DNA of 64,000 nt. It comes from Dehalococcoidia bacterium (lineage in GTDB: Bacteria; Chloroflexota; Dehalococcoidia; UBA2979). Under the pieces are notes generated by a model, which saw nothing but the letters and a program-made list of their open reading frames with translations, had not been told where the DNA came from and searched no databases. Made by a program: the position numbers and the translations under genes. The DNA lies in NCBI GenBank assembly GCA_009379925.1, contig WHSU01000011.1, forward strand, positions 1 to 64,000. The letters are read 5' to 3'. This document shows positions 17,293 to 40,312 of the stretch, piece after piece. The first letter of the stretch is position 1, and every line of letters starts with the position of its first letter.

Positions 17293-18303
17293 ATGAACAT
17301 CGCAATCCTGGGCGCCGGCGGCTTCATCGGCTCCCACCTCGTGGAACATCTGCTCGCCCGCGGCGAGCACTCGATCGTCGGTCTCGACATCGAGGATGAG
17401 AAGCTCCAGGGCATCGAAGGGCCCGCGTTCACGTTCGTGAGGTCGGACGTCCGGGAAGTCCCGGACAGCGTCGTGCGTGACGCGGACGTGGTGGTGGACC
17501 TGATCGCATACGCGAACCCTAGCATCTACGTGGAGTCGCCGCTGGAGGTCTTCCGGCTCAACTTCATGACGAACCTGGAGATCGCGAATCAGTGCATCCG
17601 CTATGGCAAGCGGCTCATCCAGTACTCTACCTCCGAGGTATACGGGAAGAGCCGCCCCCCCGACACGGTCTACTTTGAGGACGAGACCGACATGATCATG
17701 GGACCCACCACGAAGCAGCGGTGGATTTACGCCGTGGCGAAGCAGTTGCTGGAGCGCGTGATCCACGCGCATGGTCTGCTGGGCGAGATCGACTACACGA
17801 TTGTGCGGCCGTTCAATTTCATCGGCCCCCGCATTGATTACCTGGTTCCGGCCGGTTCGATGGGCGGCCCCCGCGTCTTCGCGCATTTCATGTCGGCGCT
17901 GCTCGAGGGCGGCCCCATGTACCTGGTAGACGGCGGGGCGGCGCACCGCACGTTCATGAGCATCTACGACGCAAACACGGCCCTCCAGGCGATCCTGGAT
18001 AGCCCGGCCGCGAGCCAGCAGATCTATAACTTCGGCAACCCGGACAACAACATCATGATCCGGGACCTGGCTCCGCTGATGATGGACCTCTACCAGGAGG
18101 CCACCGGGCAGGCGCCTCGCTGCGAACCGACCGAGGTCAGCGGCGAGACCTTCTACGGCGAAGGCTACGAGGACATGGACCGTATCCCGCCGGACATCAG
18201 CAAACTGCGCGCCCTGGGCTGGGAGCCGACGCGCGACCTGAACGAGACCTTCGGCGACACTATCCGGTACTACCTGAAGGAAGCCGGCCGCATCTCGGTC
18301 TAG
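17293..18303 (+). CDS. NAD-dependent epimerase/dehydratase (UDP-glucuronate decarboxylase/ArnA-like)
   Basis: AILGAGGFIGSHL Rossmann motif, YSTSEVYGK, YAVAKQ catalytic YxxxK, RPFNFIGPRID. Confidence 0.85.
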   Translation: MNIAILGAGGFIGSHLVEHLLARGEHSIVGLDIEDEKLQGIEGPAFTFVRSDVREVPDSVVRDADVVVDLIAYANPSIYVESPLEVFRLNFMTNLEIANQCIRYGKRLIQYSTSEVYGKSRPPDTVYFEDETDMIMGPTTKQRWIYAVAKQLLERVIHAHGLLGEIDYTIVRPFNFIGPRIDYLVPAGSMGGPRVFAHFMSALLEGGPMYLVDGGAAHRTFMSIYDANTALQAILDSPAASQQIYNFGNPDNNIMIRDLAPLMMDLYQEATGQAPRCEPTEVSGETFYGEGYEDMDRIPPDISKLRALGWEPTRDLNETFGDTIRYYLKEAGRISV

Positions 18304-18379: not shown

Positions 18380-21205
18380 CTACTGGCCGATGAGCGCGCC
18401 GTTCCGCTCGTGACCCGCCGCCCTGAGCATGTCCCACGATGCGCGTCCGCAGAGTTCCCAGCGCTTGTACGTCTGGTAGTCACTGAGGTGTTGCTGGGGG
18501 ACACGGTAGGTGTTGCGGTCGAACCGATTGTTGTCAGAGGCACCACACGCGCCGGCCAGACCCGAGTTGCCGCCGGACCCGAGATAAATGATCTCGTTGT
18601 CGCGTACCCACGCGTTCTTCGTCACGCGCGGCCCGTAAGCGCCCGGACCCCGGTCCTGGCTTACGAGACCGATGCCATCCGCGCCCTCGGCCGGGACGAT
18701 GATCTTGTTGCCGTAGATCTCTACGTCCGGGCTGTTCTGGATCACGATCTGTGCGCCCCAGAGCCACGTGTCGTAACCGAGGCCGTTGTACTGGGATACA
18801 TTGTTGCGGATCACCGCGGCGTAGCTGATCTCGTGCTTGATGCCCGGCGCCCGGTTGTGCTCCAGCAGGTTGTCCTCGATCAGAGTGTCGATGTTGTCGA
18901 TGTCTGTCCAGAGCCCCGGCCCATAGTTGTGGTGCACATAGTTGTCACGCAGCACCAGGTTGCGTGTCTTGACAAACTTCGATCCGCCAGCTTCCCAGCC
19001 CGACTGGAAGCCGCCCGTGTTGTTGTAGGCGATCTCGTTGCCCTGGACCAGGACGTCGTTGCCGCTGCCCCCCATCCCGATCTGGCCGTTGCGCAGCACT
19101 CGGTTGTCGAGCGCCCGCATGCGCTCGCCTACGCGGATGCCGTAGCCATGGTTGAGCCGGGTCAGGTTGCCCTGCACGAGCCAGCGGCTGCCGTCCTTGC
19201 CCTGGATCGCGCCAGTCTGGGTGGGGTTGGAGTACTTCTCCACGGTCAGACCGATGATCGAGACATCGGACGCGCTGCCCTTGAAGGCGTACATGGTGAC
19301 GCTCGCCTCGACCGTGCGGCCGGAGGGATTGTCCGCGAAGTAGATCTTGTCGGCGCCGTAGTCGAAGTACCATTTGCCGGGACCGACCTGGCTGCGGCTG
19401 GAGACCTGCCACAATGGCTCGTCGTCGATGAACAGTTGCTCCGGCTGCCCGCACATGTCGTAGCGGCTCCCGTTTTCCTGTTCGACGCAGCCGCCCTTGA
19501 CCAGACCCTGCTGCTTCTGCCCCGTGGCCACCCAGTAGCTGCCGTCACGGCTGAAGTCGGTCAGCAGCCGCGAGCCGTTGAGGATGGCCCCAGGCTCGCC
19601 GAGGAACGTGTCGCCGTCGCGCGGGACGATCTCCTGCATGCGGTGCACGCCGGCCCGCAGGTAGAACGTGCTACCGACCGGGTGCTGTTTGATGACCGAC
19701 TGGATGTCCTGGCCGGGCGCGACGATGATGGCGCCGGCGGGTGCTGAGCTGGGCAGGGCCAGCGGGGTTGCTGTCGCCGTCGGGGTGGCCGTTGGTGTGG
19801 GCGTCGATGCACTACCCGAAGCAGGAACGGGCGCGGTCACGCTGCCGCCAGTGGTGAAGACGGCCTGCACGATCTCCCGCCGGCCGCTCGAGGTGGTCAC
19901 CTCGGCGGTCACGACCTGTTCGCCGGCCGCGACGCTGGAGGTGTTCCACGGGTATGCCCGTCCGTCACCCGCGGTCCGCGCGAAGTCGTACGGTTGCTTA
20001 CCTTCCTTGGAGAAGGGCGCCTTCTTCATCTGAGGGTCGTTGAGGAAGAAGCGGACGCGGGAGATGCCGGTGTCCGGTGCCATGAAGATGTAGGCGTTGC
20101 CATCCAGCGTGGCGCCGTGGAGCGCGGTCGCACCGGACCGCGTGCCGGAGCCGCTGACGCGGAGCGTGTAGTACTCGCCGAGCTGCGCCGCGGAGGCCTG
20201 CGTCTTCGCGGCGGGCGTGGCGGTCGGCATGGCCGTGGCCGCGGGCACGCCGGCGGCGCCCCCGACCGTGAACGCGGACTGGGCGACCTCCGTGTTACCG
20301 GACTTGGTGATGACGCGCGCCGTCACCGCGTGCTCGCCGGTACTGAGCTTGCTGGTGTCGAAGGGGAGGGCGCGCATGCTCGTAGCCGTACGGGCGAGGT
20401 CGAACGGCGGCAGGCCCTCGGTGGAGTACGGCTTCCCGCTCATCTGCGGGTTGTCCACGAAGAACTCCACCTTCTTGATGCCGCCGTCCGGCCCCACAAA
20501 GATGTAGACCAGCCCGGACAGCGAGGCGCCGTGCAGGTCCGTCGCCCCGGAGCGGTCGTCGGACGTGCTCACGCGCAGCGAGTACGTGTCGCCCACGCGC
20601 TGGGCCGGAAGGCTCGTGCTGTGCTGTCCCGTATCTGCCGTCGCGCTCGGGCTGGCGCCATCGGAAGCCTCCGGCGCTTGCACCGGCCCGGCCGTAAAGC
20701 TCGCGTGGACCACCTGCACCGTGTTGTCCGGCAGGTGGACGGCAGCGGTCACCGTGTGCGCGCCAGGCGTCACGGACCACGGGTCGAAGGGGTTTCCGCG
20801 GTCATCGTCGCCCCCCATGAAGTCGTGGGGCCCGAGGTTTTCCACCTGCCAGGGCGAACCGTTTCGCCCGGGGTCGTCCAGGTAGAACCGAACGCGACTC
20901 GCGCCAGACCCGGGCGTCAGGAAGATGTAGGACGGGCCGGACAGGTGCTCGCCATCGAGCGCGCGCGCGTTGGCGCGGGTCTCGACGTCGCTCACGACGA
21001 TCTCGAAACCACCGGAGGCGGCCGCCCGACTGCCCAGCGTCAGAAGCAGCATGACCGCGAACGCGGCCACGGAGGCGATGAGTAGCCCCGCGGCGAGCAG
21101 CCTCGGGGCGGCGATGGAAACGAGGGGTGAAGGGCCAGTACGGGGGAGCGGGACGGCGCGGTGCTCGGGAGCGCGCCGGGGCTGCCCTCCGGGTGTGGAG
21201 GTCAC
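18380..21205 (-). CDS. Secreted right-handed parallel beta-helix protein with three N-terminal Ig-like-looking repeats (paralog A)
   Basis: N-terminal hydrophobic segment; repeats at aa 65-173, 205-316, 343-454; PT-rich linker; beta-helix with WTDIDNIDTLIEDNLLEHNRAPGIKHEISY. GTG start after AAGGAAGGAA. Confidence 0.85.
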   Translation of the reverse strand: MTSTPGGQPRRAPEHRAVPLPRTGPSPLVSIAAPRLLAAGLLIASVAAFAVMLLLTLGSRAAASGGFEIVVSDVETRANARALDGEHLSGPSYIFLTPGSGASRVRFYLDDPGRNGSPWQVENLGPHDFMGGDDDRGNPFDPWSVTPGAHTVTAAVHLPDNTVQVVHASFTAGPVQAPEASDGASPSATADTGQHSTSLPAQRVGDTYSLRVSTSDDRSGATDLHGASLSGLVYIFVGPDGGIKKVEFFVDNPQMSGKPYSTEGLPPFDLARTATSMRALPFDTSKLSTGEHAVTARVITKSGNTEVAQSAFTVGGAAGVPAATAMPTATPAAKTQASAAQLGEYYTLRVSGSGTRSGATALHGATLDGNAYIFMAPDTGISRVRFFLNDPQMKKAPFSKEGKQPYDFARTAGDGRAYPWNTSSVAAGEQVVTAEVTTSSGRREIVQAVFTTGGSVTAPVPASGSASTPTPTATPTATATPLALPSSAPAGAIIVAPGQDIQSVIKQHPVGSTFYLRAGVHRMQEIVPRDGDTFLGEPGAILNGSRLLTDFSRDGSYWVATGQKQQGLVKGGCVEQENGSRYDMCGQPEQLFIDDEPLWQVSSRSQVGPGKWYFDYGADKIYFADNPSGRTVEASVTMYAFKGSASDVSIIGLTVEKYSNPTQTGAIQGKDGSRWLVQGNLTRLNHGYGIRVGERMRALDNRVLRNGQIGMGGSGNDVLVQGNEIAYNNTGGFQSGWEAGGSKFVKTRNLVLRDNYVHHNYGPGLWTDIDNIDTLIEDNLLEHNRAPGIKHEISYAAVIRNNVSQYNGLGYDTWLWGAQIVIQNSPDVEIYGNKIIVPAEGADGIGLVSQDRGPGAYGPRVTKNAWVRDNEIIYLGSGGNSGLAGACGASDNNRFDRNTYRVPQQHLSDYQTYKRWELCGRASWDMLRAAGHERNGALIGQ
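19844..20179 (-). repeat. Protein-level tandem repeat 3 of paralog A (~112 aa)
   Basis: YYTLRVSGSGTRSGATALHGATLDGNAYIFMAPDTGISRVRFFLNDPQ...YDFARTAGDGRAYPW...VVTAEV...AVFTTGG. Confidence 0.85.
20258..20593 (-). repeat. Protein-level tandem repeat 2 of paralog A (~112 aa)
   Basis: TYSLRVSTSDDRSGATDLHGASLSGLVYIFVGPDGGIKKVEFFVDNPQ...FDLARTATSMRALPFDTSKLSTGEHAVTARV...AFTVGG. Confidence 0.85.
20687..21013 (-). repeat. Protein-level tandem repeat 1 of paralog A (~109 aa)
   Basis: FEIVVSDVETRANARALDGEHLSGPSYIFLTPGSGASRVRFYLDDPG...HDFMGGDDDRGNPFD...GAHTVTAAV...ASFTAGP. Confidence 0.8.
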
Positions 21206-21217
21206 AGTGTTCCTTCC

Positions 21218-21310
21218 TTCGGCAGGCCGGCGGCCATGTCCGCGCAGTGCGCGGCGGTAGGTCCGTGCCTTTGCGTCGCCGCCTTTCGACGGCTTTGCCC
21301 TTTCGTCGGT
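21218..21310 (-). ncRNA. c-di-GMP-I (GEMM-I) riboswitch aptamer in the 5' leader of beta-helix paralog A
   Basis: Minus-strand RNA: GGGCAAAGCCGUCGAAAGGCGGCGACGCAAAGGCACGGACCUACCGCCGCGCACUGCGCGGACAUGGCCGCCGGCCUGCCG. It has a GCCGUC-GAAA-GGCGGC tetraloop stem, GACGCAAAG core, CCGCGC-ACU-GCGCGG P3 hairpin and GCCGGCCUGCCG 3' end, immediately before the AAGGAAGGAA SD. Confidence 0.9.
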
Positions 21311-21537
21311 GAGGACCTCTGGCGCACCTCCCTGTGCCGCGGCATAGGATCACCGCCCGAATCATCGGCAGGATCGGGCGCGCCCTTGATGCTCCGTGGA
21401 GTTGAGATCGAGGTGTCAGAGCGGCGTCAGGAATCGCCCACCACGCCGCGCAGCATCAACCGGGGGCGCGCCGAGCACCTAGCGGCGCCTGGCAGTCCTG
21501 GGCCACGGTGATAGACAGGGGGCCGCCCAGGGGCGCG

Positions 21538-22788
21538 TCAGACGCGGCCGGACGCGCCCTGGCGGCGCCGGACCGCGGAAGCGTACAGGTCACGCAGGAG
21601 GTGCCCCTTGTGGGCCCAGGGGTACACCGTGCGGACGCGCTCCCGCGCGTGCAGGCCCATGCTGTGACGCCGCTGCGGGTCACGGGCGAGCGCTTCCAGC
21701 GCATCCGCGAAGGCCCGCACCGTCGAGGTGGGATCGGAGGGCGCGATCCTGACGCCGGAGTCGTCGTCCACTATCTCCGCTGCGCCGTGGTGGTCCAGCG
21801 TCACTACGCCAATGCCGCGAGCCATCGCCTCCAGGATCACGTTGCCGGACGTGTCCTGCAGGCTGCTGAAGAGGAAGATCTCGCCCGAGCGGTAAAACTC
21901 CTGCATCTCCCGATGCGGGAGGTTGCCCAGCAGCTCGACTCTGTCCCCGAGCCCCTCGCGGAGCACGCGCTGCTCCAGGCGTCGGCGGAGCGGGCCGTCG
22001 CCCGCCATGCGCAGCCGCGCCGGGACGCCGCGGCGGTGTAGCTCGGCCAGGATGTCGACGGCCAGTTCCGGACCCTTGCGTGGGACATGCTGTCCCGCCC
22101 AGAGGACGGTCAGGCACGCCGACTCGGCGGGCGGCGCTGGCTCGGGGACGCTGTCCAGGTCGATGCCGGTCTCCAGTTCGCGCACCACGCGGCGCGCCCG
22201 CAGGCGGCCCAGGAGCGCCTCTGTATCCGCGTTCGCCGCGAGCACAGTGTCCGCGCGCCGCGCCGCAAACTGGTTCCACGGGTTCAACGGCGTCAGCCGC
22301 TTCCGCAGGCCACGGAACCACTCGATGGCCCAGTAGCGGCCGTAGTACGAGCGCAGCGAGGCCGGGGCGAGCTGCGCCCCGCCCACGGGACCCCAGATGA
22401 AAGGCGGGCCCAGTGCCGCCAGGAAACCCGGCACCTCAACGGTGTTGTAGGTGACGTGATGCACGACATCGAAGTCGACCTGGCGGTGCAGCCGCCGGGC
22501 CACGAAGGGGACCGTGCACTGCCACACCACGTAGTACAGATGTAGATAGCCGGGACGGCCAAGGTAGAACCGCAGCCACCGGGGCAGCGGGTGGTAGACA
22601 AAGTGCAGATTGGGGTTCGGGTGCGCCGCGAGCGCAGCCTCGATCATTGGGCGGCTGTATTCGCGCGTCAGCACCCACACCTCGTGGTCGCGGGCTGCCT
22701 CCAGCGCCCAGTGCCAGCCGACGCCGAGCTCCGACCCTCGTCCGGGCTGGCACGCGTAGGCGGAGAGCAGGATCTTGAGCCGGGGCAT
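21538..22788 (-). CDS. Glycosyltransferase family 4
   Basis: MPRLKILLSAYACQPGRGSELGVGWHWALEAARDHEVWVLTRE; VLWAGQHVPRKGPELAVDIL; EIFLFSSLQDTSGNVILEAMARGIGVV. Confidence 0.88.
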   Translation of the reverse strand: MPRLKILLSAYACQPGRGSELGVGWHWALEAARDHEVWVLTREYSRPMIEAALAAHPNPNLHFVYHPLPRWLRFYLGRPGYLHLYYVVWQCTVPFVARRLHRQVDFDVVHHVTYNTVEVPGFLAALGPPFIWGPVGGAQLAPASLRSYYGRYWAIEWFRGLRKRLTPLNPWNQFAARRADTVLAANADTEALLGRLRARRVVRELETGIDLDSVPEPAPPAESACLTVLWAGQHVPRKGPELAVDILAELHRRGVPARLRMAGDGPLRRRLEQRVLREGLGDRVELLGNLPHREMQEFYRSGEIFLFSSLQDTSGNVILEAMARGIGVVTLDHHGAAEIVDDDSGVRIAPSDPTSTVRAFADALEALARDPQRRHSMGLHARERVRTVYPWAHKGHLLRDLYASAVRRRQGASGRV

Positions 22789-22832
22789 CCGTCCCTGTTC
22801 TGGCTGGTCGGTAACAGGCCCCGCGAGTCTAC

Positions 22833-23693
22833 TCAGTCCGCCGGGTAGCCGATACGACAGTTGAGTTCGCCGGCGACCGCCTCGAACGCGCGCCGGTGCT
22901 CCGGCGTCAGCCGTTCCCGCCATCCGCCGGTACGGCCTTCCCGGAAGGTGTGCGAGGTAGAGGGGTCCAGCGCCTGCACGGAGAAGCGCCGCGGGATGTC
23001 CTCGTCCGGCAGGTCGACGCCGGCGTGGTCCAGGATGCGCCGGACCGTCGCATAGCGGACCTCGTCGCTACCACCGCCTCGAGCGCCCACCAGGTCCTCG
23101 AAGCGGACGGCGCAGGTGTCGGGGTCGTCCAGCCAGCCGGCAAACTTCTCGAAGTCCTGGCCGATGTTCCCGCGCGAGACGTTGGAAGCGAAGGGCCAGC
23201 CCAAGGGGACACCGAGGATGGACGCCATGATGCGTTCGTCGTCATCCTTCATGTGGTCGCGATAGACCGGATGCAGGTACGACCGGCGCTCGCCGAGCAC
23301 CCATCGAGCGTGGGAGATCGCCACGTCACGCAGGTCGCGGTAGATGAAGAAGCGCCGCCACGGCCGCTGCGTTAGTAACTCGCGGATTTCCGGGTAGGAC
23401 GTGAGGTGTGACCGCACGACCGAACCGGGTGGTGGTGTGGCCAGCTTCCACTTGAGGTGTTCTCGCGTATTCGTGGTGCCCGACAGCGACTGCACCGAGA
23501 CGATGTCGTCCCATGTGGTGAACCCCGGGATGGCCAGGAGGATCTGGTCCAGAAGGTGCGTGCCGCTCTTCGGGTAGGAGTTGGCCAGCAGCAGCGTGCC
23601 TTCACCCTCTCGCAAGCGCCGCCGCGCTGCGCGCAGGCGAAACACCTGGTCACGGCCCGTCAACCGAAGTGCATTCGACAGCCCGTACGGCAT
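22833..23693 (-). CDS. Sulfotransferase
   Basis: LLLANSYPKSGTHLLDQILLAIPGF 5'-PSB motif; FFIYRDLRDVAISHARW; FEDLVGARGG. Confidence 0.88.
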   Translation of the reverse strand: MPYGLSNALRLTGRDQVFRLRAARRRLREGEGTLLLANSYPKSGTHLLDQILLAIPGFTTWDDIVSVQSLSGTTNTREHLKWKLATPPPGSVVRSHLTSYPEIRELLTQRPWRRFFIYRDLRDVAISHARWVLGERRSYLHPVYRDHMKDDDERIMASILGVPLGWPFASNVSRGNIGQDFEKFAGWLDDPDTCAVRFEDLVGARGGGSDEVRYATVRRILDHAGVDLPDEDIPRRFSVQALDPSTSHTFREGRTGGWRERLTPEHRRAFEAVAGELNCRIGYPAD

Positions 23694-23782
23694 CTCAATG
23701 TCCTCCTCGAGCCATCGGGCTCAGGTTAAGTGTCGGAAGCGTCCCGGGAGATCGCAGTGTTCCGGGCATCTGGCCGTCAGGC

Positions 23783-24754
23783 TCACGGCAAATAGCCGTA
23801 CCGAAGCAGGAGAGGCCAGGTAAGCGCGGTCACCATCGCACGGTCGCGCCGCGACATCGTGCGTGACTCATCGTCGGGACGGATCTTGAGCGGCCCCTGC
23901 TGGAAGCGGATGGGATTACCTGCGACCGTGTGTTGCGCGGACACCGTAGCCTCATGGCCGTCCAGAAAGCTCAACTGCCGATCAAGGTCCGGGTAGGGCG
24001 CCAGTATGGTCTGCAACGTTGCCCGCGGGTCGCGCACGAAATCCTCGTACAGGACGCGTCGATACGAGTGTGCCCGCAAGCCGAGCAACGGCGCCGTGAG
24101 ATTGTGCACCGCCCAGCGGCCCGCGGCCTCTGGGGGCCGGTAGCGCGGCATGAAGACCTCGCGGTCAGTGATCTCCGGACGTCGGCGCAGGCGCTGCCAC
24201 GAGAACGCCACCGCACGGCTGTCTCTGACCACATGCACCACGTCCAGCTGCACCTCAGGCGACGCGGCCAGAATGAAACCGTGCGATGGGGTCTTCGATG
24301 AGTCGACGATGACCGTCGCCCCGGTCGCCTGCCGGATGCTACCGAACAACTTGAGGAGGGCGTCCTGATATGTCGCCAGGGCTGCGTCGTGGGAGCGGTT
24401 GCGGACGGGAAGACCGGCGAGCATGGTGATCCTCAGACGGTCGACGATCTCACGCCGGCGCTGGATGAGGGCTAGGTCCTCCCTGGAGAGCGTCCCGAAG
24501 CCTTCCTGAACGACTTCCGACCAGACTTCACAAGTGTGGAAGGGGTTTCCGCAACCGCAGAGCTCATTCCCAGCGAAGCCGCGGTCCCATATATAGCGAA
24601 CCTCGCCCGCCGAGAAGACCCCGGGCACTTCGCCCAGCAACTGCTCGATCAGCGTACTGCCGCTGCGACCCATCCCGGCGATGAACAGGACCCGCGTTGG
24701 CCGCGCAGGACTGGACCACCGACGGTCCGATTGAGCCACCGGTGCGCTATCCAT
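23783..24754 (-). CDS. Sulfotransferase
   Basis: VLFIAGMGRSGSTLIEQLLGEVPGVFSAGEVRYIW; VVHVVRDSRAVAFSWQR. Confidence 0.88.
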   Translation of the reverse strand: MDSAPVAQSDRRWSSPARPTRVLFIAGMGRSGSTLIEQLLGEVPGVFSAGEVRYIWDRGFAGNELCGCGNPFHTCEVWSEVVQEGFGTLSREDLALIQRRREIVDRLRITMLAGLPVRNRSHDAALATYQDALLKLFGSIRQATGATVIVDSSKTPSHGFILAASPEVQLDVVHVVRDSRAVAFSWQRLRRRPEITDREVFMPRYRPPEAAGRWAVHNLTAPLLGLRAHSYRRVLYEDFVRDPRATLQTILAPYPDLDRQLSFLDGHEATVSAQHTVAGNPIRFQQGPLKIRPDDESRTMSRRDRAMVTALTWPLLLRYGYLP

Positions 24755-26330
24755 TTGGCGGTAGATCCCCTGCGGGAGCCTCCGGCTCGGTCGCGGCGTC
24801 CGACGCCACTATCTCCAATGTACCGGTCAACTCCTGTCCGCGCTCCTGGAAGCCGACCCAGGCGACCGGACCGCACCATGCCCAGTACTCCGTGGCGTCG
24901 TCGGGGACGTGGTACGTGTTGCCGTCGAACACGTTACCGGACTCGCCCGCGCATGCGGGCGACTGATCGGTGTCGTCACCCATGCCGGACTGGCCGACCG
25001 CGCCGATGTATCGAATCGTGTTGTTGAGCACGCGGACGTCTCTCGAGACCCATGGCCCGCGGACGCCATCTCCGCGGCGCTGGTTGACCACGGCGATGCC
25101 GTCCCCGCCTGCCTCGCCGACTATGACCTGATTGCCCACGACCTCGACGTCCTGGCTGTTCTGCACCAGGATCTGGGCGCCCCAGAACCACACGTCGTAG
25201 CCCTGGCCATTGAAGCCAACTGTGTTGTTTCGGATGGTGGCGGTGTAGCTGATCTCGTGCGTGATGCCACGGTTCAGGTTGTGCTCGACGACGTTCTCCT
25301 CGATCAGCGAGTCGATGTTGTCGATGTCAGTCCACAGCCCAGCGCCGTAGTTGTGGTGCACGTGGTTGCCGCGGACGACGAGGTTGTGAGTGCGACTGAA
25401 CTTCGTCGCGCCCGCCTCCCAACCCGATGCGAAGCCCGCACGGTTGTTATACGAGATCTCGTTGCCCTCAACGAGGACATCGTCGCCCTGCCCACCGATA
25501 CCGATTTGACCGTTGTCGTGGACGTGGTTCCCGCGGATCACAGCGGAGTCGCCAGTGCGGATGCCGTATCCGTGGTTCCAGGACACGTCATTGTCCTGGA
25601 TGGTCCACGCGTAACCATCAGAGGCGTCGATGGCTGCCGCCTGCGCTCGGTTCGCGTACTGGTGGATGGTGAGCCCCGTAATCACGACACCTCGCGCCTC
25701 GCCGGTGAAAGCGAACCCCGTCACGCTCGTCTCCACCAGCCGGTCCCCGGGATCCTCCGAGAGCACGATGGTGTCGTTGTCATAGTCAAAGAACCACATG
25801 TCCGGCCCCAGGTCGTCCGTGGACCCGACCTGTGTGAGGGCCTCTCCATCGATGAAGAGCTGCTCGGGATGCTGACAGATGTCGCTTCCCGCCTCAGCGC
25901 AGCGACCCGTGCCGAACCCTTGCTGGGTCTGGTCGCCGACGACCCAGACGCCGGACTGCTCCTGGAAGCCCTCCAGGACTCGTGCTCCGCTGAGGATCGC
26001 GCCCGGTTCGCCCTCGTAGATGTCTCCGTCTCGGGGTTCGATGGCCTGTTCACGGTACACCCCTGCAGTGAGGACAAAGCGCGTACCAGGCGGGTGTTGG
26101 TCCACGACCTCCTGGATGGTCTCGCCGGCCTCGATCATCACGGTGACGGGCTCCGGCGTGGGCGTGAATGTGGCCGCTGGGCCCGGGGTTGAACTACCCA
26201 TGGTGCTTTCGGTTGGGACGGGCGTCTCCGGGGTAGCGTCGTCACCGTCGCAGGCGGACACCAACAGCGCGGCTAGCGCCACGGCCAGCCAGGCGAGGCT
26301 CAGGCCCCACGATCGCCGCAACACACTCAT
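24747..26330 (-). CDS. Right-handed beta-helix lipoprotein (paralog B, lacks N-terminal repeats)
   Basis: Lipobox LLVSAC after MSVLRRSWGLSLAWLAVALAALLVSACDGDD; beta-helix homologous to paralogs A and C; ATGA overlap with upstream gene. Confidence 0.85.
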   Translation of the reverse strand: MSVLRRSWGLSLAWLAVALAALLVSACDGDDATPETPVPTESTMGSSTPGPAATFTPTPEPVTVMIEAGETIQEVVDQHPPGTRFVLTAGVYREQAIEPRDGDIYEGEPGAILSGARVLEGFQEQSGVWVVGDQTQQGFGTGRCAEAGSDICQHPEQLFIDGEALTQVGSTDDLGPDMWFFDYDNDTIVLSEDPGDRLVETSVTGFAFTGEARGVVITGLTIHQYANRAQAAAIDASDGYAWTIQDNDVSWNHGYGIRTGDSAVIRGNHVHDNGQIGIGGQGDDVLVEGNEISYNNRAGFASGWEAGATKFSRTHNLVVRGNHVHHNYGAGLWTDIDNIDSLIEENVVEHNLNRGITHEISYTATIRNNTVGFNGQGYDVWFWGAQILVQNSQDVEVVGNQVIVGEAGGDGIAVVNQRRGDGVRGPWVSRDVRVLNNTIRYIGAVGQSGMGDDTDQSPACAGESGNVFDGNTYHVPDDATEYWAWCGPVAWVGFQERGQELTGTLEIVASDAATEPEAPAGDLPPNG

Positions 26331-27874
26331 CCGCTCGTCCTCATCGGCCGCCTCGCGGCATGCGGTGGGGAATCGGCTGTGGCGAGACGGGAGTTGGATC
26401 GTGTCTGGACTTCCTCGTTCGTGTGGATCCGGAGGGCGGCGAGACCGATGCCCATCATGACCCACATCCAGATGGCGCCCTGCGGACCCTCCAGGTAGAC
26501 ATCGAACGCGCCGTTGACCATGGCGGCTGCCCAGTACACAAGCACCCAGCCGAAGATGCCCGCCCAGAACTCTTCGCCCGTCCGCCGAGCGCGGAGGTGG
26601 ACGCGCAACATGGCGAACCCAAAGACGAGGTGCATCCCCATCCAGAGCGCGAAGCCCGGGACGCCCGCACGTGCGAGCGCGGTCAGGTGTCCGTTGTGCG
26701 GGGAGCGCAGCCCGTCCACGACGTCGAACCCGTCGTCCTCGGCCAGGTTGATGCCGAAGCCCTTGCCGGTGAGGAAGTACTGCCCGCGGACGGTGTAGTC
26801 GTAGATCTCGCCCCACCACTCGAGGCGCCACTCCTTCGTGGACTCGGCCCGCCGGCTGTCCGTATCGGAGACGATGCTCACGGCGTTGACGACGATCTGG
26901 TCGACCGAGACGCTGCGCGAGCCCCCGAGGTTGATGGTGGGATTGATGAGGAGCGCCACCACGAGCAGGAAGGCGCCCACGCCCGCGACGGGCAGCAGGC
27001 GCCTGGTGGGGCGCAGCGCCGCCGCCAGCACCACCCCGGTGCCCGCGGCCAGCATGCCGCCGCGGCTAAAGGAAGCGACGAGCACGAAGGTCGCGAGCCA
27101 GATCGCCCACAGGAGCGTCTCGGGGAAACCTCGGCGCTCCCGCCCGGTGTAGAGGCCCATGAGCAGGAAGGCCGCGGCGCCGGCCATGTGCACGCCCATG
27201 TCCCCGGCCTTGAAGGTGAAGAAAAAGACGTCTGAGACCGGTACCGATGGGAATGGCAGCCCAATGGCCAGGGCGATGCGGAAAACGGGTACCCAGAGCA
27301 GGAAGACCGGCAGGATCGCCACGTAGACCGAGATCGCCTTGTCGAACTGGGAGCGGCGCACGATGAACATGGAGATCGCGAGCGCGAAGAGCGAATAGCC
27401 CCAGAAGACGCCGTCGCGCAGGGCATCGACGCCGTACCTGGGGAGGTACGGGAAGGTGTTGAGCGCCCCCCACGCGATGAAGGCGATGATCAGCCACTCG
27501 GTCAGGTGGAAGCGGATCCGGAGCGGCGTCACCAGCACGGCCAGCAAGCCGAGGCCAAACAGCATCTCGCCGACGTAAAGCGGCGCCACACCAACGTGTG
27601 CAAAGCCCCGGCCGATGAACGCATAGCCGGTCAGTACGACCACGACGGCGGCGAGGAACAGCTTCGGAAGTTGGCGGCCCAGACCCGCGAACATGGCCAG
27701 AGCGAAGCTGATCCCGATCAGGCCGACCACGACCAGAGGACGGTTGGCGGCGCCCAGGTACCCCGCGGCGACCGCCACGAAGACGACCATACCGACCGGC
27801 AGCAGGCGAGAGTCCCGTATGGTGGCCCAGGCGCTGCCCAGCGGGTGACGTCTCCACGTCAGGGGACGGTTCAT
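26327..27874 (-). CDS. O-antigen ligase / Wzy-like polysaccharide polymerase, multi-TM
   Basis: About ten or more hydrophobic segments; GKGFGINLAEDDGFDVVDGLRSPHNGHLTALARAGVPGFALW ligase-like motif. Confidence 0.82.
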   Translation of the reverse strand: MNRPLTWRRHPLGSAWATIRDSRLLPVGMVVFVAVAAGYLGAANRPLVVVGLIGISFALAMFAGLGRQLPKLFLAAVVVVLTGYAFIGRGFAHVGVAPLYVGEMLFGLGLLAVLVTPLRIRFHLTEWLIIAFIAWGALNTFPYLPRYGVDALRDGVFWGYSLFALAISMFIVRRSQFDKAISVYVAILPVFLLWVPVFRIALAIGLPFPSVPVSDVFFFTFKAGDMGVHMAGAAAFLLMGLYTGRERRGFPETLLWAIWLATFVLVASFSRGGMLAAGTGVVLAAALRPTRRLLPVAGVGAFLLVVALLINPTINLGGSRSVSVDQIVVNAVSIVSDTDSRRAESTKEWRLEWWGEIYDYTVRGQYFLTGKGFGINLAEDDGFDVVDGLRSPHNGHLTALARAGVPGFALWMGMHLVFGFAMLRVHLRARRTGEEFWAGIFGWVLVYWAAAMVNGAFDVYLEGPQGAIWMWVMMGIGLAALRIHTNEEVQTRSNSRLATADSPPHAARRPMRTSG

Positions 27875-27964
27875 CGGCCAGCCTCGCCCGCAGCAAGCGC
27901 GCCGCGGGATGCGTCGTCTCGCGTGCCTGGAATGACTCTGCGACGCCGCAGAGGCACAACTACC

Positions 27965-28657
27965 TTACATCGCCCCTCGACGGCTGAGGACGGCCATGGG
28001 GGTCTTGAGGAGCAGCAGCAGGTCGAACCAGAGCGACCGGCGGGCGACGTAGTCCAGGTCCATCTGCATCCACTGCTCGAAGGTGACCTGACTGCGGCCC
28101 GAGATCTGCCAGATGCAGGTCAGGCCCGGCTTTACGCTCAGCCGCTCGGCCTGCCGCCCGGTGTACTCGTTCTCGACAATCGGGAGCGCTCGAGGCCCGA
28201 CCAGGGACATGTCCCCACGGACGATGTTCCAGAACTGCGGGATCTCATCGATGCTGAATTTTCGCAGGAAGCTGCCTACCGGCGTGAGGCGCGGGTCGTT
28301 CGGCAACTTGAAGGCCGGCCCGCCGGTGGTGTTGAGATGTACGACCTCGTCCCGGCGGCGCTCCGCGTCCGGCACCATGGTGCGGACCTTCCAGCAGATG
28401 AACTCCTGGCCCAGGTAGCCCATCCGGCGCTGCCCGAAGAAGATCGGTCGGCCGGATGTCACCAGGACAGCGGCCATCGCCGTGAGCAGGATCGGGAGCG
28501 AGAGCAGCAGCAGCACGCTGCCACCCAGCACGTCTAGCGCACGCTTCAGCGGCTCGTAGCCCGGGTGGGCAGGCGCCGCGGGACGGACATCGATAGCGCC
28601 CACACGCACAGTGTCGGCGGATGGTCCTCTTGTACGCAGTCCGGTACTAGTCGACAT
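27965..28657 (-). CDS. Undecaprenyl-phosphate sugar-1-phosphate transferase (WbaP/exopolysaccharide initiating type)
   Basis: KRALDVLGGSVLLLLSLPILL, ICWKVRTMVPDAE, LRKFSIDEIPQFWNIVRGDMSLVGPRALP, KPGLTCIWQISGRS. Confidence 0.93.
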   Translation of the reverse strand: MSTSTGLRTRGPSADTVRVGAIDVRPAAPAHPGYEPLKRALDVLGGSVLLLLSLPILLTAMAAVLVTSGRPIFFGQRRMGYLGQEFICWKVRTMVPDAERRRDEVVHLNTTGGPAFKLPNDPRLTPVGSFLRKFSIDEIPQFWNIVRGDMSLVGPRALPIVENEYTGRQAERLSVKPGLTCIWQISGRSQVTFEQWMQMDLDYVARRSLWFDLLLLLKTPMAVLSRRGAM

Positions 28658-29873
28658 GGCAGACCGGCCGGGCCAGGCCATCGAGCACGGTGCAGCCGGG
28701 ATGGAGGCGGACGCCACGGGTCGTACCCGGGTGTACTTCGATGATCACGTCGTGGTCTTCGCCCGCGGTCTCCAGGCTATCGAGGTACTCGACCGTGTCT
28801 CCGAGCACCGCTCGCGCGTTTGCGGTGGCCAGCGGGTCATAGACCGACACCGACAGCCGCTCGCCCATCAGCGCCTGGACGAGGCGAATGGACTGCGACG
28901 AACGGATCGAGTCGGACTCGGGCTTGAAGGCCAGACCGACTACGCAGACCCGCCGCGTCTCTCGACCGTCCAGGAGGCCCAGCGTGCGGCCCACGACGCG
29001 CTCGATGGCCGCGCCGTTGGTGTTCGCTGCGCCGTCGAACAGCGCAGAGGGGACCCCGAAGGCGCGCGAGGTGGCGCGCAGGGCGTTCAGGTCCTTCGGT
29101 AGGCAGCTCCCGCCGAAGCCCAGGCCGGGCGAGAGGTAGTCCATGCCGATGCGCGGGTCGGCGCCCACACCGGCGAGTACGGACTTCACGTCCGCACCGG
29201 CCGAGTCCGCCAGGTAGGCAATCTCGTTCGCCATGGAGACGCGCACCGCCAGCGAGGCGTTGACCGCGAGCTTGATCAGTTCGGCGGTGGCCGCGTCCGT
29301 CCGGATGAGCGGGGCGTCCGAAAAGGCGTACAGGCTGCAGAGCATGTCCAGCGCTTCGGCGTCGCAGCCGCCGACCACGCGGCGGGATGGGAAGTCGAAG
29401 TCGAGCAGCGCGGTGCCTTCGCGCAGGAACTCTGGGTTCACCATCACGGTAGCGGGGCGTTCGTGAGCGCGCAGGCGCTCCTCGATCATGCGGGCCGTGC
29501 CGGGGTTGACCGTGCTGCGGATGACCACGCGCAGGTAGCCCTCGACGCTGCGGGCCAGGTCGTCGACTGCTGCCACGATCCGCGAGGAGTCCAGGTCGCC
29601 CGCTTCCGTCGGCGATGTGTCCACGCAGACGAAGGCCAGGTCGGCGGGTCCGAAGCTGTCCGGGTAACCGCCGTGCACGGTGAGCGCACCGCTGGCGACG
29701 GTGCGCGTCAGTTCCTCCGCCAGGGAGGGCTCGACGAACGGCAATGCGCCTTCACGGAGGCGCTGTGCCCGCTCCGGGTCGATGTCAACCACCTGGACCT
29801 GGTGGCCATGACGTGCAAACCCGACAGCGGTGGCCAGGCCGACGTAGCCACCCCCCGCGACGACCAGATTCAT
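28647..29873 (-). CDS. UDP-glucose/GDP-mannose dehydrogenase family (UDP-glucose 6-dehydrogenase-like)
   Basis: MNLVVAGGGYVGLATAVGFARHGHQVQVVDID; GFGGSCLPKDLNAL catalytic Cys; internal start chosen. Confidence 0.88.
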   Translation of the reverse strand: MNLVVAGGGYVGLATAVGFARHGHQVQVVDIDPERAQRLREGALPFVEPSLAEELTRTVASGALTVHGGYPDSFGPADLAFVCVDTSPTEAGDLDSSRIVAAVDDLARSVEGYLRVVIRSTVNPGTARMIEERLRAHERPATVMVNPEFLREGTALLDFDFPSRRVVGGCDAEALDMLCSLYAFSDAPLIRTDAATAELIKLAVNASLAVRVSMANEIAYLADSAGADVKSVLAGVGADPRIGMDYLSPGLGFGGSCLPKDLNALRATSRAFGVPSALFDGAANTNGAAIERVVGRTLGLLDGRETRRVCVVGLAFKPESDSIRSSQSIRLVQALMGERLSVSVYDPLATANARAVLGDTVEYLDSLETAGEDHDVIIEVHPGTTRGVRLHPGCTVLDGLARPVCHVD

Positions 29874-30307
29874 GCCGTACTCACCCTTACCTGCACTGAC
29901 GCGGTTGGGTCCCCGGAGAACCCGTCCCGGTGTCCGTCTGATGACGCAGCCGCGTTCGCGTCGGGAGGGCAAGCACCAACAGTTCGCCGAACTGTCGGCG
30001 ACCCCGCCAGCGCGAAGTATAAATGGCTCTACGCAGCCGTCCACTCGCTTGATCGATACCGACCGGTTCTGTCCCGGCATTGATAGGTATACGCGGAAGG
30101 CGGTTAACGGAGCGTATAGACGACGTAAGACGGGAACCGTCGCCCGCGAATCCGCTCCAGCCTCCGTGGTCAGCCCTCCCGGCCCGACTCTCCTGCCGCG
30201 ACCTCGGTGAGCGCCTACGGCTCCACGACTCAGGCGGGTAGGAGACCGCATGCTGTCGCCTGAACCAATCGAACCCGCGAGTTCCCAGCACGGGAAGACC
30301 CGGCGCC

Positions 30308-31442
30308 GTGAAGATCCTGGTAGACGCCACGGCCGTTCGCGAGGGCAGCGGCGGTATGACCACATACCTGCGGGGATTGCTGGAGGGCTGGGAGTCGCTC
30401 GATACCGGCGACATGTTCCACATACTGGGCATGGGGGACCTCCCGGCCATCGAGTCCATGACCGGCGTCGTCGAGAGGCTGGCTGGCCGGGGACAAGTCG
30501 CCCGCGTGTGGGCCCAGCAGTCTCGCGTGCCTCGACTGGCGCGCTGACTGCAGGCGGATGCCATCCTGGCTACGGATCGCAGCATGCCGCTGTGGCCGAA
30601 CCGGCCTGCCGTGGTGGCGACGGTCCACGACCTGCGCCACCTGCGCCAGCCGGCCGAGTTCGCGAAGCCGCGCCGCGTATACCGCGGCGTCATGTGGGGC
30701 CAGGGGCTTCGCCGGGCTGACGCGCTAGTAGCCAACAGTCACTCCACGGCTGAACACGTCCTCGGGGTGCGCCCGAGCGCGGACGGGCGACTCCACACGA
30801 TTCACTTCGGGTGTGACCACGTCCTGCGGTGGCCTCAAGCTGATCCAACGGACGCGCACGCAATTGCGTTCGCCGACTGGACGAACAAGCGGCCTGACCT
30901 GGCAGTCGCGGCCTGGGGCGTCCTGCGGAGGGAGTGGAGCGGGTTCGCCTGCGCGCTCGACATCGTGGGGGCACCCCGAGCCGACCGGTCGGCCCTCAGA
31001 CAACCCGCCGCGGAGGCGGGCGTGGGCGACTTGGTCCGCGTGCACGGCTACCTGACCGAGGATGTCCACCAGGCGCTGTTCGGGCCCGCGCGCCTCGTGG
31101 TAAGCCCGTCCACGCTGGAGGGCTTCGGCTTTCCGGTCCTGGAGGGGATGCGGCTGGGTATCCCGGCGGTGTGCGTCCGTGGCGCCGGGCTGGAGGAGGC
31201 CGGCGGTCGCTGGGCGTTCCATGCCGACGGCTGGACTCCGCATGCCTTCGCCGACGCCGGCGGCCGCGCGTTGTTCGACCCGGACCGGCGATCGCGGTCC
31301 ATCGAGGGCGGGCGGAAGCACTCCGCCCGCTTTCACGTGACGCCGCACGGCCGAGCAGCTGCGTGCGGTCGTCGAGGCGGCGGTGAACGCCCGCGGTGCG
31401 ACTGTACGGCGGGCCAGGAGGACGCGGATGCGCGCTGGTTGA
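30308..31442 (+). pseudogene. Degraded glycosyltransferase family 4 gene (in-frame TGA plus 3' frameshift)
   Basis: N-term GTG-start MKILVDATAVREGSGGMTTYLRGLL..., TGA at 30545-30547, same-frame continuation LQADAILATDRSMPLWPNRPAVVATVHDLRHL...FGFPVLEGMRLGIPAVC; dropping one C near 31346 restores FHVTPTAEQLRAVVEAAVNA. Confidence 0.75.
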
Positions 31443-34852: not shown

Positions 34853-36241
34853 GTGGAATTTCCACAATACGTAGCGATGTTGCGCCGCTGGTGGTGGCTG
34901 GTCGTCGCGAGCATCGTGATAGGTGGCGGCCTCGCCTACTGGCTGAGTTCCCAGGGCCCGGCTACGTACCGGTCGACGACTACGCTGCTGGTCCAGCAGC
35001 AGCAGACACCGGGCGTCTTCCAGCCCGCCGACTTCCAGACCAGCCAGCTGCTCGCCAACACGTTCGCGCGCCTCATCACGTTGCGCCCGGTGCTCGAAGA
35101 AGCGATCGAGGCGGGTCGACTGGACCTCAGCCCGCAGCAGCTCGAGCGGCGTCTCGAGGTGACGCCGGAACTGGACTCGACGTTGCTCGAGATCACCGCA
35201 TCGGCAAGCAACGCGGAGGGCGCCGCGCACATCGCGAACACGGTCGCGCAGACCTTCGTGAACTCCACGCAGCCCGTGCTGCAGATATCGACCGGCACGG
35301 TGTCCGTCGTCGAGCCGGCTCTGGTCCCGGGCGCACCGGAGGCAAGCCCGGTCATGCTCAACACGATCCTGGGGGCCGTCCTGGCGGCCATCGGCGGTGT
35401 CGCGCTCATCCTCATCTTCGAGAGCCTCGACAGCCGGCTGCGGCGCGCGGGCGACGTGGCGACGCTGGTCGGACTTCCGGCACTCGGACGCGTCCACCGC
35501 TTTCGAGGCGACCGCCACAACGGTGGCGGCGTCCTCGCGGATCCGCAGTCAGATGTCACTGAAGACTACCGCGCGCTGCGCACCACACTCTCGACGCGCC
35601 TTGGCCTGAGCCAGGGCTCGAAGGCGCTGCTGATCGCCAGTCCCGCCCCCGGCGACGGGAAGACGGCAACCACAGCCAACCTGGCCACTGTCTTCGGCCT
35701 GGCCGGCCGGCACGTCGTGATCGTGGACGCGGACCTGCGCGCCCCCGAAATGCACGATGTCTTCGGGCTGCGGAACGCCGCGGGCCTGACGACGTACCTC
35801 AACCGTCCGGACGTGGACGTGGAAGCCGTCGTCCAGCGCACCTCCCAGCCGAACGTGTGGGTGATCCCGGCCGGGCCAACGGTCCCCAACCCTTCCGAAC
35901 TCCTCGGCTCCGACCGCATGCACGAGTTGTTGGACGCCCTGCGCGAGCAGTACGACGTGGTGCTCCTGGACAGCACTCCGCTCCTCGCCGTGACCGACGC
36001 CACCGTGGTGGCGGCCATTACGGACGCGTCCGTGATGGTGGTCAGGCCCAGCAAGACGCGCCGCGAGGAACTCACCGCGGCCCTGGACGAACTCGACGAG
36101 GCGGGGCGGCCCGTGCTTGGAGTGGTCCTGAACCAGATCGGGCGCCAGGAAGCCGCGCGCCTGTACAGCCGCCCGAGCGGGACCGTCACGGACCGGCTCC
36201 CGGAGACCCTGCCTCAGCCGCGCGTGGGGCGAGAGATCTAG
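34853..36241 (+). CDS. Wzz/BY-kinase (polysaccharide biosynthesis tyrosine autokinase, CpsD/CapB-like)
   Basis: N-terminal Wzz-type domain with [23 protein letters not shown] Walker [20 protein letters not shown] Walker A', [10 protein letters not shown] Walker B. Confidence 0.9.
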
Positions 36242-36318
36242 TACAACATGGCGCCGGATGCGCCCCAGCCCGACCGTCTCGACAGCACTCGAGGCGGTGG
36301 CGGAGAGGCATCGAGAGA

Positions 36319-36885
36319 GTGCATCAGCCACAGACTGGCTTCGTGATCTGGTTCACCGGGCTCTCCGGCGCCGGGAAGTCCACGCTGTCCCACCGCGTGG
36401 GCGAGGAGCTTCAGCGCCGGCTCGCACACGTGGAGGTCCTGGACGGTGATGAGGTGCGCACCCACCTCTCGAAGGGCCTGGGCTTCACCCGCGAGGACCG
36501 CGACACGAACGTGCTCCGCATCGGTTTCGTCTCCAAGCTCCTCGCGCGTCACGGTGTGGCCGTGCTGGTCGCGGCGATCGCCCCGTACGCGGACACCCGC
36601 CAGCGGGTCCGTCAGGGCATCGAGCGCTTCGTCGAGGTGCATGTCGACTGTCCGCTGGAGGAACTGGAAGCGCGGGACGTCAAAGGGCTGTACGCACGGG
36701 CGCGACGCGGTGAGTTGGAACATTTCACCGGCATCTCCGACCCCTACGAGGCGCCGGCGTCTCCGGAGATTCGCGTCGACACCTCGCGCCATTCGCCGGA
36801 CGAGTCGGTCGCGATGATCCTGCGCTGGCTTGAGCAACACGAATGTATTCCGGCCGTGCGCGATGCCGCGCTGGCCGACCGATGA
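36319..36885 (+). CDS. cysC: Adenylylsulfate (APS) kinase
   Basis: [89 protein letters not shown] start inferred at 36319. Confidence 0.93.
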
Positions 36886-37976
36886 ACGCGGGTGGGAACG
36901 AGACTGCCATGACCGACCTCGATCAGATGGACACGTTTGACCGCCTGGACCCGACCGGCGTCCATCGACGTATCGCTGCCTTCACCGAGGACGCACGGGC
37001 GGCGTGGGCGCTTGGCCGCGCCTTCGAGCCACCCGCTTCCTTCCGCGCGCCCCGGCGTGTCGTCGTGCTGGGGATGGGCGGTTCCGCGATCGGCGCCGAC
37101 ATCGCGGGGACGCTCGCGCTGCGCCGGACCGCCGTCCCGCTGCAGGTCGTGCGCGGCTCCGCGGTGCCGCCCGTGGACGACGAGACGCTAGTGATCGCCT
37201 CGTCGCACTCGGGTGAGACGTGGGAGGTGCTCTCGGCGTTCGAAGCGGTGCTCGCCGGGCCCGGCATGCACATGGCGATCACGCAGGGCGGCCGCCTGGG
37301 CGAACTGTGCGAAGGGCACGGGGCGCCCGTCGCGCGTTACCGCTACGATGGCGAGCCGCGGGCGGCGCTCGCGTATGGGGTATTCCTGTTGCTCGGCGTG
37401 CTCGACCGGCTCGGCGTCGCCGTGGTGACCGAGGACGAGGTGGTCGCCGCGCTGGCTGAGGTCGACGAGCAGGGCGCGGACTGGGGGACGCAGTCTCCCG
37501 TCGCCGGGAACCTGGCGAAGCGCCTCGCGGGCTCGCTGGACGGGCGGCTACCCGTGATCGTGGGGGACGGCCCGCTGCAAGTCGCGGCGCTGCGTTGGCA
37601 GAACCAGTTGAACGAGAATGCCAAGCGCTGGGCGTTCCACGCGGCGCTGCCGGAACTGGCCCACAACCTGGTAGAGGCCTTCGGCCGGCCGTCAGCGGTC
37701 CCGTTCCGCCTGATCGTCCTGGAGAGTCCCTTCGGCGACGCACATTCGCGGCGCCGCAACGACGTGATCCTGGAGCAGCTGGCGCAGAGCCGGGTGGATG
37801 CGGAGCGCGTGCGGCTGGAGGCGCGGAGCGCGCTGGCTGCGCTGCTGGTCGCCTGCCACCTGGGTGACTGGACTTCGCTCTATGCGGCCTTACTGGACGG
37901 CGTGGACCCGTCGCCGGTGCCGGTCCTCACCCGCTTCAAAGAATCGCTGGCGTCTGTCATCGGCGGCGCGCGATGA
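36882..37976 (+). CDS. Bifunctional phosphoglucose/phosphomannose isomerase-like
   Basis: [41 protein letters not shown] overlap with cysC. Confidence 0.85.
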
Positions 37977-38974
37977 GCAACGGCGATCGTGCCGCATCGA
38001 CTGCCGCCGGCGGGCAGGGCGGGAACCGGAAGGTGGGTGAGCCCGTGTCCTACAAGCCAGGATTGGGAATGGCGTACGAACTGAGCCACCTGGGAGCGCT
38101 GGAGGCGGAGGCCATCCACATCATCCGGGAGGTGGCGGCGGAGTTCGAGCGCCCGGGCCTGCTCTTCTCCGGCGGCAAGGACTCGATCGTCATGCTGCGG
38201 CTGGCGGAGAAGGCGTTCTGGCCCCAGAGACTCCCGTTCCCCGTCGTCCACATCGACACCGGCCACAACTTCCCGGAGGTCATGGAGTTCCGTGACCGCC
38301 GCGTCGCGGAAATGAGCATCCGCCTGGTCGTCGGGTCCGTGCAGGACGCCATCGACGCCGGCCGCGTCGTCGAGGAGCGGGGGCCGCGGGCTTCGCGGAA
38401 CCGCCTCCAGACGACCGTGCTGCTGGACACGATCCAGCAGCACGCCTTCGACGCGGTGTTCGGCGGCGCGCGTCGCGACGAGGAGCGTGCCCGCGCCAAG
38501 GAGCGCATCTACTCGTTCCGCGACGAGTTCGGGCAGTGGGACCCGAAGCAGCAGCGCCCCGAGTTGTGGAACCTGTACAACGGACGCCACCGCAAGGGTG
38601 AGCACATCCGCGTCTTCCCGCTGTCCAACTGGACCGAGTTGGACATCTGGCAGTACCTGGCGCAGGAGCAGCTCGAGATCCCATCGGTCTACTACGCGCA
38701 CCGCCGCGAGGTCTTCCAGCGCGACGGCATGCTGATGGCGACCAGCCCGTTCCTGGAGCAACTGGAGGGCGAGGAGCCCTTCGAGGCGACCGTGCGCTTC
38801 CGGACCATCGGCGACATGACCTGCACGGCCGCCGTCGCCTCGGAGGCCGCCGACGTCGAGACGATCGTGGCGGAGATCGCTGCCACCCGGATCACCGAGC
38901 GCGGCGCCTCGCGAGCCGACGACCGGACCTCCGACGCGGCGATGGAAGACCGCAAACGCGAGGGATACTTCTAG
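37973..38974 (+). CDS. cysD: Sulfate adenylyltransferase subunit 2
   Basis: YELSHLGALEAEAIHIIREVAAEFERPGLLFSGGKDSIVMLRLAEKAFWP; ATGA overlap with upstream gene. Confidence 0.95.
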   Translation: MSNGDRAASTAAGGQGGNRKVGEPVSYKPGLGMAYELSHLGALEAEAIHIIREVAAEFERPGLLFSGGKDSIVMLRLAEKAFWPQRLPFPVVHIDTGHNFPEVMEFRDRRVAEMSIRLVVGSVQDAIDAGRVVEERGPRASRNRLQTTVLLDTIQQHAFDAVFGGARRDEERARAKERIYSFRDEFGQWDPKQQRPELWNLYNGRHRKGEHIRVFPLSNWTELDIWQYLAQEQLEIPSVYYAHRREVFQRDGMLMATSPFLEQLEGEEPFEATVRFRTIGDMTCTAAVASEAADVETIVAEIAATRITERGASRADDRTSDAAMEDRKREGYF

Positions 38975-39055
38975 CGCGAGACCGCCTCGTTACACGCACC
39001 CAGCAGCCGCGCAGTCGCATCGAGATCGCGCCGCGGCACCTCGGAAGGGCCCCTC

Positions 39056-40312
39056 ATGGAACTCCTGCGCTTCGCCACCGTCGGCTCTGTGGACGACGGG
39101 AAGAGCACCCTGATCGGCCGCCTGCTCTACGACTCGAAGTCGATCCTGCAGGACGCGTGGGACGCCATGGAGCGCACCTCGAAGTCCCGCGGCGACGAGT
39201 ACGTGAACCTGGCGCTGCTGACGGATGGCCTGCGCGCGGAGCGGGAGCAGGGCATCACCATCGATGTCGCCTACCGCTACTTCGCCACGCCCAAGCGGAA
39301 GTTCATCATCGCGGACACCCCCGGGCACATCCAGTACACGCGCAACATGGTGACGGGCGCCTCCACGGCCGACCTAGCGTTGATCCTGATCGACGCGCGG
39401 GAGGGAATGGTGGAGCAGTCCCGGCGGCATGCCTTCATCTCCAGCCTGCTCGGCATCCCCCACCTGGTCGTCTGCGTCAACAAGATGGACCTGGTGGACT
39501 ATGACCGCGCGGTGTTCGACCGCATCAAGGCGGAGTTCACGGCCTTCGCCAGCCGGCTCCAGGTGACCGATGTCACCTTCGTGCCCATCTCTGCGCTCAA
39601 GGGCGACAACGTCGTCGACCGCTCCGAGCACATGCCCTGGTACCAGGGCCCCACGCTGATGCACCACCTGGAGGAGGTGCACATTGCGTCGGACGACAAC
39701 TACATCGATGTGCGGTTCCCCGTGCAGTACGTGATCCGCCCACAGAGCAGCGACTACCCGGACTATCGGGGCTACGCCGGCACCGTCGCCGGCGGCGTCC
39801 TCCGCCCCGGGGACGACGTGGTGGTGTTGCCCTCCGGCTTCAGCACGCGCGTCGCCGGCATCGACACCTGTGACGGCCCGGTCCGCGAGGCGTTCCCGCC
39901 GATGTCCGTCATCGTGCGGCTGGAGGATGACCTCGACGTCTCACGGGGCGACATGATCTGCCGCCCACAGAACCGGCCCACGGCGTCCCACGACGTGGAG
40001 GCAATGGTTTGCTGGATGTCGGAGGACACGGAACTGGCGCCCGGCCGCCGGTACTCGCTGAAGCACACGACGCGCAGCGTGCGCACCGTCGTCCAGGACA
40101 TCCGCTATCGCATTGACGTGAACACGCTACATCGGGACCTGGGCGTGGAGGGGCTGAAGCTGAACGAGATCGGGCGCATCCACCTGCGCACCACGGCCCC
40201 GCTCTTCTTCGACGAGTACCGGCGCAACCGCCTCACCGGCAGCTTCATCCTCGTGGACGAGGCTACCAACAACACGGTCGGCGCCGGCATGATCTTGCAC
40301 CCGACGGACTGA
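39056..40312 (+). CDS. cysN: Sulfate adenylyltransferase subunit 1 (no fused APS kinase domain)
   Basis: FATVGSVDDGKSTLIGRLLYDSKSI, EQGITIDVAYRYFATPKRKFIIADTPGHIQYTRNMVTGAS. Confidence 0.95.
   Translation: MELLRFATVGSVDDGKSTLIGRLLYDSKSILQDAWDAMERTSKSRGDEYVNLALLTDGLRAEREQGITIDVAYRYFATPKRKFIIADTPGHIQYTRNMVTGASTADLALILIDAREGMVEQSRRHAFISSLLGIPHLVVCVNKMDLVDYDRAVFDRIKAEFTAFASRLQVTDVTFVPISALKGDNVVDRSEHMPWYQGPTLMHHLEEVHIASDDNYIDVRFPVQYVIRPQSSDYPDYRGYAGTVAGGVLRPGDDVVVLPSGFSTRVAGIDTCDGPVREAFPPMSVIVRLEDDLDVSRGDMICRPQNRPTASHDVEAMVCWMSEDTELAPGRRYSLKHTTRSVRTVVQDIRYRIDVNTLHRDLGVEGLKLNEIGRIHLRTTAPLFFDEYRRNRLTGSFILVDEATNNTVGAGMILHPTD

Follow-up and report, generated by a model that had tools for sequence, protein, structure and literature searches.

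A c-di-GMP-I riboswitch with the Shine-Dalgarno sequence of a beta-helix protein gene in its predicted P1 helix in a Dehalococcoidia bacterium

A genuine, standard c-di-GMP riboswitch, one more example of a well-known regulator, stands directly before the gene of a 941-aa beta-helix protein in the 64-kb window, the whole stretch of DNA analysed here. In a cmscan search of the window against all Rfam families, RF01051 (c-di-GMP-I, GEMM-I) matched at 21309..21218 on the minus strand over the full length of its model (positions 1-87) with 63.2 bits, compared to a gathering score of 35 (E-value 5.2e-10), and this element was the only above-cut-off Rfam match in the window. The earlier note had claimed a GEMM-I aptamer here and named the RF01051 covariance model as the means to check it; the score bears the claim out. 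The span given there, 21205-21310, reaches from the aptamer through the Shine-Dalgarno (SD) sequence into the start codon, of which it takes in one base, the first; it leaves out the 5′ strand of P1 at 21315-21312. The identical RF01051 search of 14 well-known control genomes returned zero matches above the cut-off, which places the window match far from chance. The element is also the only RF01051 copy in the 3.54-Mb assembly (71 contigs, 87% complete). In a laxer scan, RF03167 (c-di-GMP-I-GGC) was the top entry of the clan by E-value, but its 55.5 bits did not reach its own gathering score of 59. Therefore, RF01051 is the family to which the element was assigned.

All parts of the aptamer named by the earlier note are present in the cmscan alignment. 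The P2 hairpin GCCGUC-GAAA-GGCGGC (21278..21293) is followed by the core GACGCAAAG (21277-21269), by a GC-rich P3 stem with an internal hairpin (21224..21270, from the alignment and pair counts) and by the 3′ strand GCCGGCCUGCC, which runs to 21221. The P2 hairpin is conserved in seven relatives of the family, with both sides changed in two of its six pairs. Its GAAA tetraloop is exact, while the receptor in P3 reads CUAC...AUG compared to the consensus CUAA...AUG, a change common to two relatives (L039 and L041). Ligand-contacting residues were located using the Vc2 positions named in PMC4744006 and PMC11218506, which we transferred to model positions by our own reading of the cmscan alignment. 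On this numbering, G21299 corresponds to G20, described as a selectivity position (PMC9262584), A21272 to A47 and C21222 to C92, and the equivalents of the interhelical C44 and G83 are C21275 and a G of the P3 3′ strand. Since all of these residues are present, the ligand is likely c-di-GMP, as judged from the sequence. The genome itself contains two GGDEF and four EAL matches.

Directly past the aptamer core lies the SD sequence AAGGAAGGA (21219-21211), followed by the GTG start codon (21205-21203), which begins 12 nt past the end of the aptamer model; the aptamer thus directly adjoins the SD of the beta-helix gene, as had been proposed. Comparison with the aptamers of the class places this SD in the 3′ strand of P1. 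The P1 pairs of the window copy are U21315-A21211, C21314-G21212, C21313-G21213, U21312-A21214 and C21309-G21217, with C21311-A21215 mismatched; this copy of P1 thus has only five pairs, interrupted by mismatches. The second AGGA of the SD (21214-21211), which is well spaced from the GTG, falls entirely within P1, where it can pair with the UCCU of the 5′ strand (21312..21315), according to pair counts in eight family sequences and also to RNAfold models.

Evidence for the helix itself came from 130 distinct aptamers of the class, in which a mean of 1.71 of 3 canonical P1 pairs were filled, compared with 1.31 (sd 0.07) when the 5′ and 3′ flanks were swapped between loci. By this measure, P1 is a genuine helix of the class. 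Among the eight closest family sequences, 92% of the pairs across the structure are standard, and three P1 pairs are changed on both sides. The P1 strands are GUCCUC and GGAAGGA here versus GCGCUC and GCGAG in most relatives, with the pairing retained. This concerted change is suggestive of a maintained helix in the one lineage on which it rests. The P1 pairing energy of the window copy, -10.9 kcal/mol, is not distinctive; 10% of the 5′ flanks of other aptamers pair equally well with the window 3′ flank. In addition, P1 is not strictly required in this class of riboswitches, as Cd1 is described as lacking it (PMC9262584).

Control is most likely exerted on translation, because no terminator-like site was found on the minus strand in an intrinsic terminator search and almost no space is left between the aptamer and the start codon. 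An intrinsic terminator was accordingly dropped as a candidate, in line with the translational gating suggested by the earlier note. We consider it rather probable that the riboswitch controls the translation of one gene, that of the 941-aa protein, as an OFF switch, a sign that is favoured over ON by analogy with Vc2. Binding of c-di-GMP would close P1 at the three-way junction, whereupon UCCU would sequester the second AGGA of the SD by base pairing and shut out the ribosome, so that the protein would be made at low c-di-GMP. With less confidence, we propose the full picture of a compact switch without a separate expression platform, in which the 3′ strand of P1 is itself the SD, the ligand masks it and the target is a secreted, carbohydrate-active beta-helix protein whose gene ends a run of sulfated-polysaccharide genes.

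Secondary structure prediction was carried out with RNAfold for seven 5′ ends combined with two 3′ ends, each free and with the aptamer enforced. The SD was mostly paired in both ensembles, the energies lay within a few kcal/mol of each other and SD accessibility showed no consistent change between the two states. Therefore, the computed folds do not decide between ON and OFF. In several cases the enforced fold came out lower in energy than the free fold, by 0.4 kcal/mol, which demonstrates a distortion of these energies by the enforced non-standard pairs. The leader as a whole folded no better than shuffled sequences (z -0.63), and a search for a consensus promoter found none.

Some of these same folds point to the opposite sign, to which we give a smaller but real chance. 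Here, a longer alternative fold with the upstream leader would hold the SD in the absence of ligand and the c-di-GMP-stabilised aptamer would free it, so that the protein is made under biofilm conditions. With the 5′ end placed between 21360 and 21420, some of the unconstrained minimum-energy structures disrupt the aptamer and engage the SD with upstream leader, at an advantage of 1-3 kcal/mol over the structure with the aptamer enforced; moreover, Vc1, ahead of gbpA, loses expression as c-di-GMP falls (PMC4744006). However, in most of these cases enforcing the aptamer still leaves the SD largely paired, and the SD strand is used here by P1, a helix that matters for the binding of the ligand by Vc2 (PMC9262584).

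Control of transcription or mRNA stability instead of translation initiation, through Rho-dependent termination or RNase access, appears improbable to us: the minus strand lacks a terminator-like site and the aptamer nearly touches the start codon, even though SD occlusion can uncouple transcription from translation and the title of a reference in PMC11218506 links Vc2 to RNA stability. We regard a relic aptamer, or one whose ligand is a different cyclic dinucleotide (3′,3′-cGAMP, for example), as very improbable. The single genomic copy, the 37 of 44 family genomes without RF01051 and the below-cut-off match of the RF03167 variant model would fit such a scenario, but the contact residues including G20 (PMC9262584) are all intact and the RF01051 score is well above the gathering score.

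The favoured translational OFF switch was compared with three characterized systems. Vc2 of Vibrio cholerae, which shares the aptamer class and the contact residues with the window element, has been described as an OFF switch of translation, with P1 as the decisive element (PMC9262584). In contrast to the SD located inside the P1 3′ strand here, the ribosome-binding site masked in Vc2 is distant from the aptamer, going by the title of Inuzuka 2018 (cited in PMC9262584). Vc1 of V. cholerae likewise has its GEMM-I aptamer in a leader, that of gbpA, which encodes a secreted protein that aids surface colonisation, but this leader is longer than 200 nt and has no apparent anti-SD (PMC4744006), while the window aptamer abuts the SD. 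Bc1 of Bacillus thuringiensis also carries a c-di-GMP-I aptamer and traps the ribosome-binding site and start codon in a ligand-dependent manner, but its platform is long, spanning about 220 nt and including two terminators (PMC11218506), whereas none was found here. Secreted proteins under GEMM-I control are already known, as is translational OFF switching via P1.

The riboswitch lies beside a probable sulfated-exopolysaccharide locus (21538-30365 on the minus strand and 34853-40312 on the plus strand), assigned from gene content. Upstream of the 941-aa gene, the same strand encodes a glycosyltransferase, two sulfotransferases, a second beta-helix protein, an O-antigen ligase-like Wzy and a sugar transferase, while a Wzz/AAA protein and sulfate-activation genes (PAPS-reductase-domain protein, GTPase) follow further along on the plus strand. 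These neighbours probably serve the synthesis of a sulfated polysaccharide. The aptamer occupies a 332-nt gap, 3′ of the biosynthetic genes and ahead of the last gene of the strand, and the next downstream gene, an epimerase at 17293-18303, is convergent. A translational switch at this position would therefore act on the 941-aa gene alone, which is the only gene clearly under the aptamer. The wider suggestion of the earlier note, which extended c-di-GMP control to the polysaccharide locus, does not hold for this arrangement.

Two paralogs of the 941-aa protein are encoded nearby. The product of 40890-43649 (plus strand) is 49% identical over nearly the full length and 58% identical in the beta-helix domain, and that of 24747-26831 (minus strand) is 52% identical in the beta-helix domain; strict and laxer Rfam scans found a GEMM-I aptamer at neither. 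The former gene follows the sulfate-activation genes after a 577-nt gap without any Rfam match, and its leader (40640-40889) folded no better than shuffles.

The controlled gene (18380..21205, minus strand) was delimited by its open reading frame and characterized by domain matches, AlphaFold and Foldseek. Its product carries an N-terminal hydrophobic segment, Ig-like repeats (PF17957, Big_7) and a Beta_helix domain (PF13229, 2.8e-14), in agreement with the beta-helix/Ig-like architecture described before. The AlphaFold model of the beta-helix domain, which is of the right-handed type, has a mean pLDDT of 68 and a pTM of 0.68. Foldseek matched it to right-handed beta-helices with carbohydrates as their substrates, namely phage tailspikes, PL6 alginate lyase, fucoidan lyase, GH28 and mannuronan C5-epimerase AlgE4. 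Among the listed matches, AlgE4 had the highest TM-scores (0.44 and 0.52). A profile search of the domain against PDB sequences gave no match. Given this empty search and the mean pLDDT of the model, we assign the protein only as probably belonging to a carbohydrate-active type of beta-helix. More speculatively, a protein of this type may act as an enzyme on the probably sulfated polysaccharide of the neighbouring genes, trimming or modifying it, and would be repressed at high c-di-GMP. Relatives of the protein were found in 5 of the 393 sampled genomes, and a Chloroflexi MAG also holds a related protein.

RF01051 itself is more widespread, being present in 85 of the 393 sampled genomes of the class and in 7 of the 44 genomes of the family. 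The genes downstream of the class aptamers, identified by eye from their translations, include prepilin/TadE-like proteins, S8-type proteases, sensor kinases and a diguanylate cyclase. No riboswitch was found at seven fetched homologs of the 941-aa protein (L056, L057, L059-L062 and L064), so that among the homologs fetched the pairing of riboswitch and 941-aa-type gene occurs so far only in the window.

A scan of the 130 aptamers for start codons close behind revealed few cases. The clearest match to the window layout comes from two loci (L045 and L046), in which the SD GGGAG lies in P1 and an ATG follows at +14, ahead of a serine-protease-like gene. Their aptamers are degenerate, scoring 37.1 and 31.5 bits, the latter under the gathering score. 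In these two species (positions 1501-1586 of both loci), GGUCGAUCC and CCGAAAAGC or CCGAAGAGC replace the usual core, and the gene directly downstream encodes a secreted serine-protease-like lipoprotein; the ligand specificity is possibly altered. Three further candidates with the SD (GGAGG) in P1 (L029, L091 and L115) were discarded because the start codon in question does not open a consistent gene. At four other loci (L096, L105, L117 and L135), a separate hairpin seems to hide a GGAGG 3′ of the aptamer, and the distance from the aptamer to the start codon is 27-37 nt. Tandem GEMM-I pairs on one strand, 16 to 128 nt apart (L044/L055, L050/L054, L042/L047 and L049/L051), were observed in two relatives of one genus (G173 and G224), where they precede S8-protease-like or other secreted-looking proteins.

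The window element leaves the understanding of this riboswitch class unchanged. It adds one well-anchored c-di-GMP riboswitch target, a secreted beta-helix protein encoded next to what is probably a sulfated-polysaccharide locus, to a lineage rich in c-di-GMP-I switches, and its compact layout would give an easy model of direct SD masking by the P1 helix of an aptamer.
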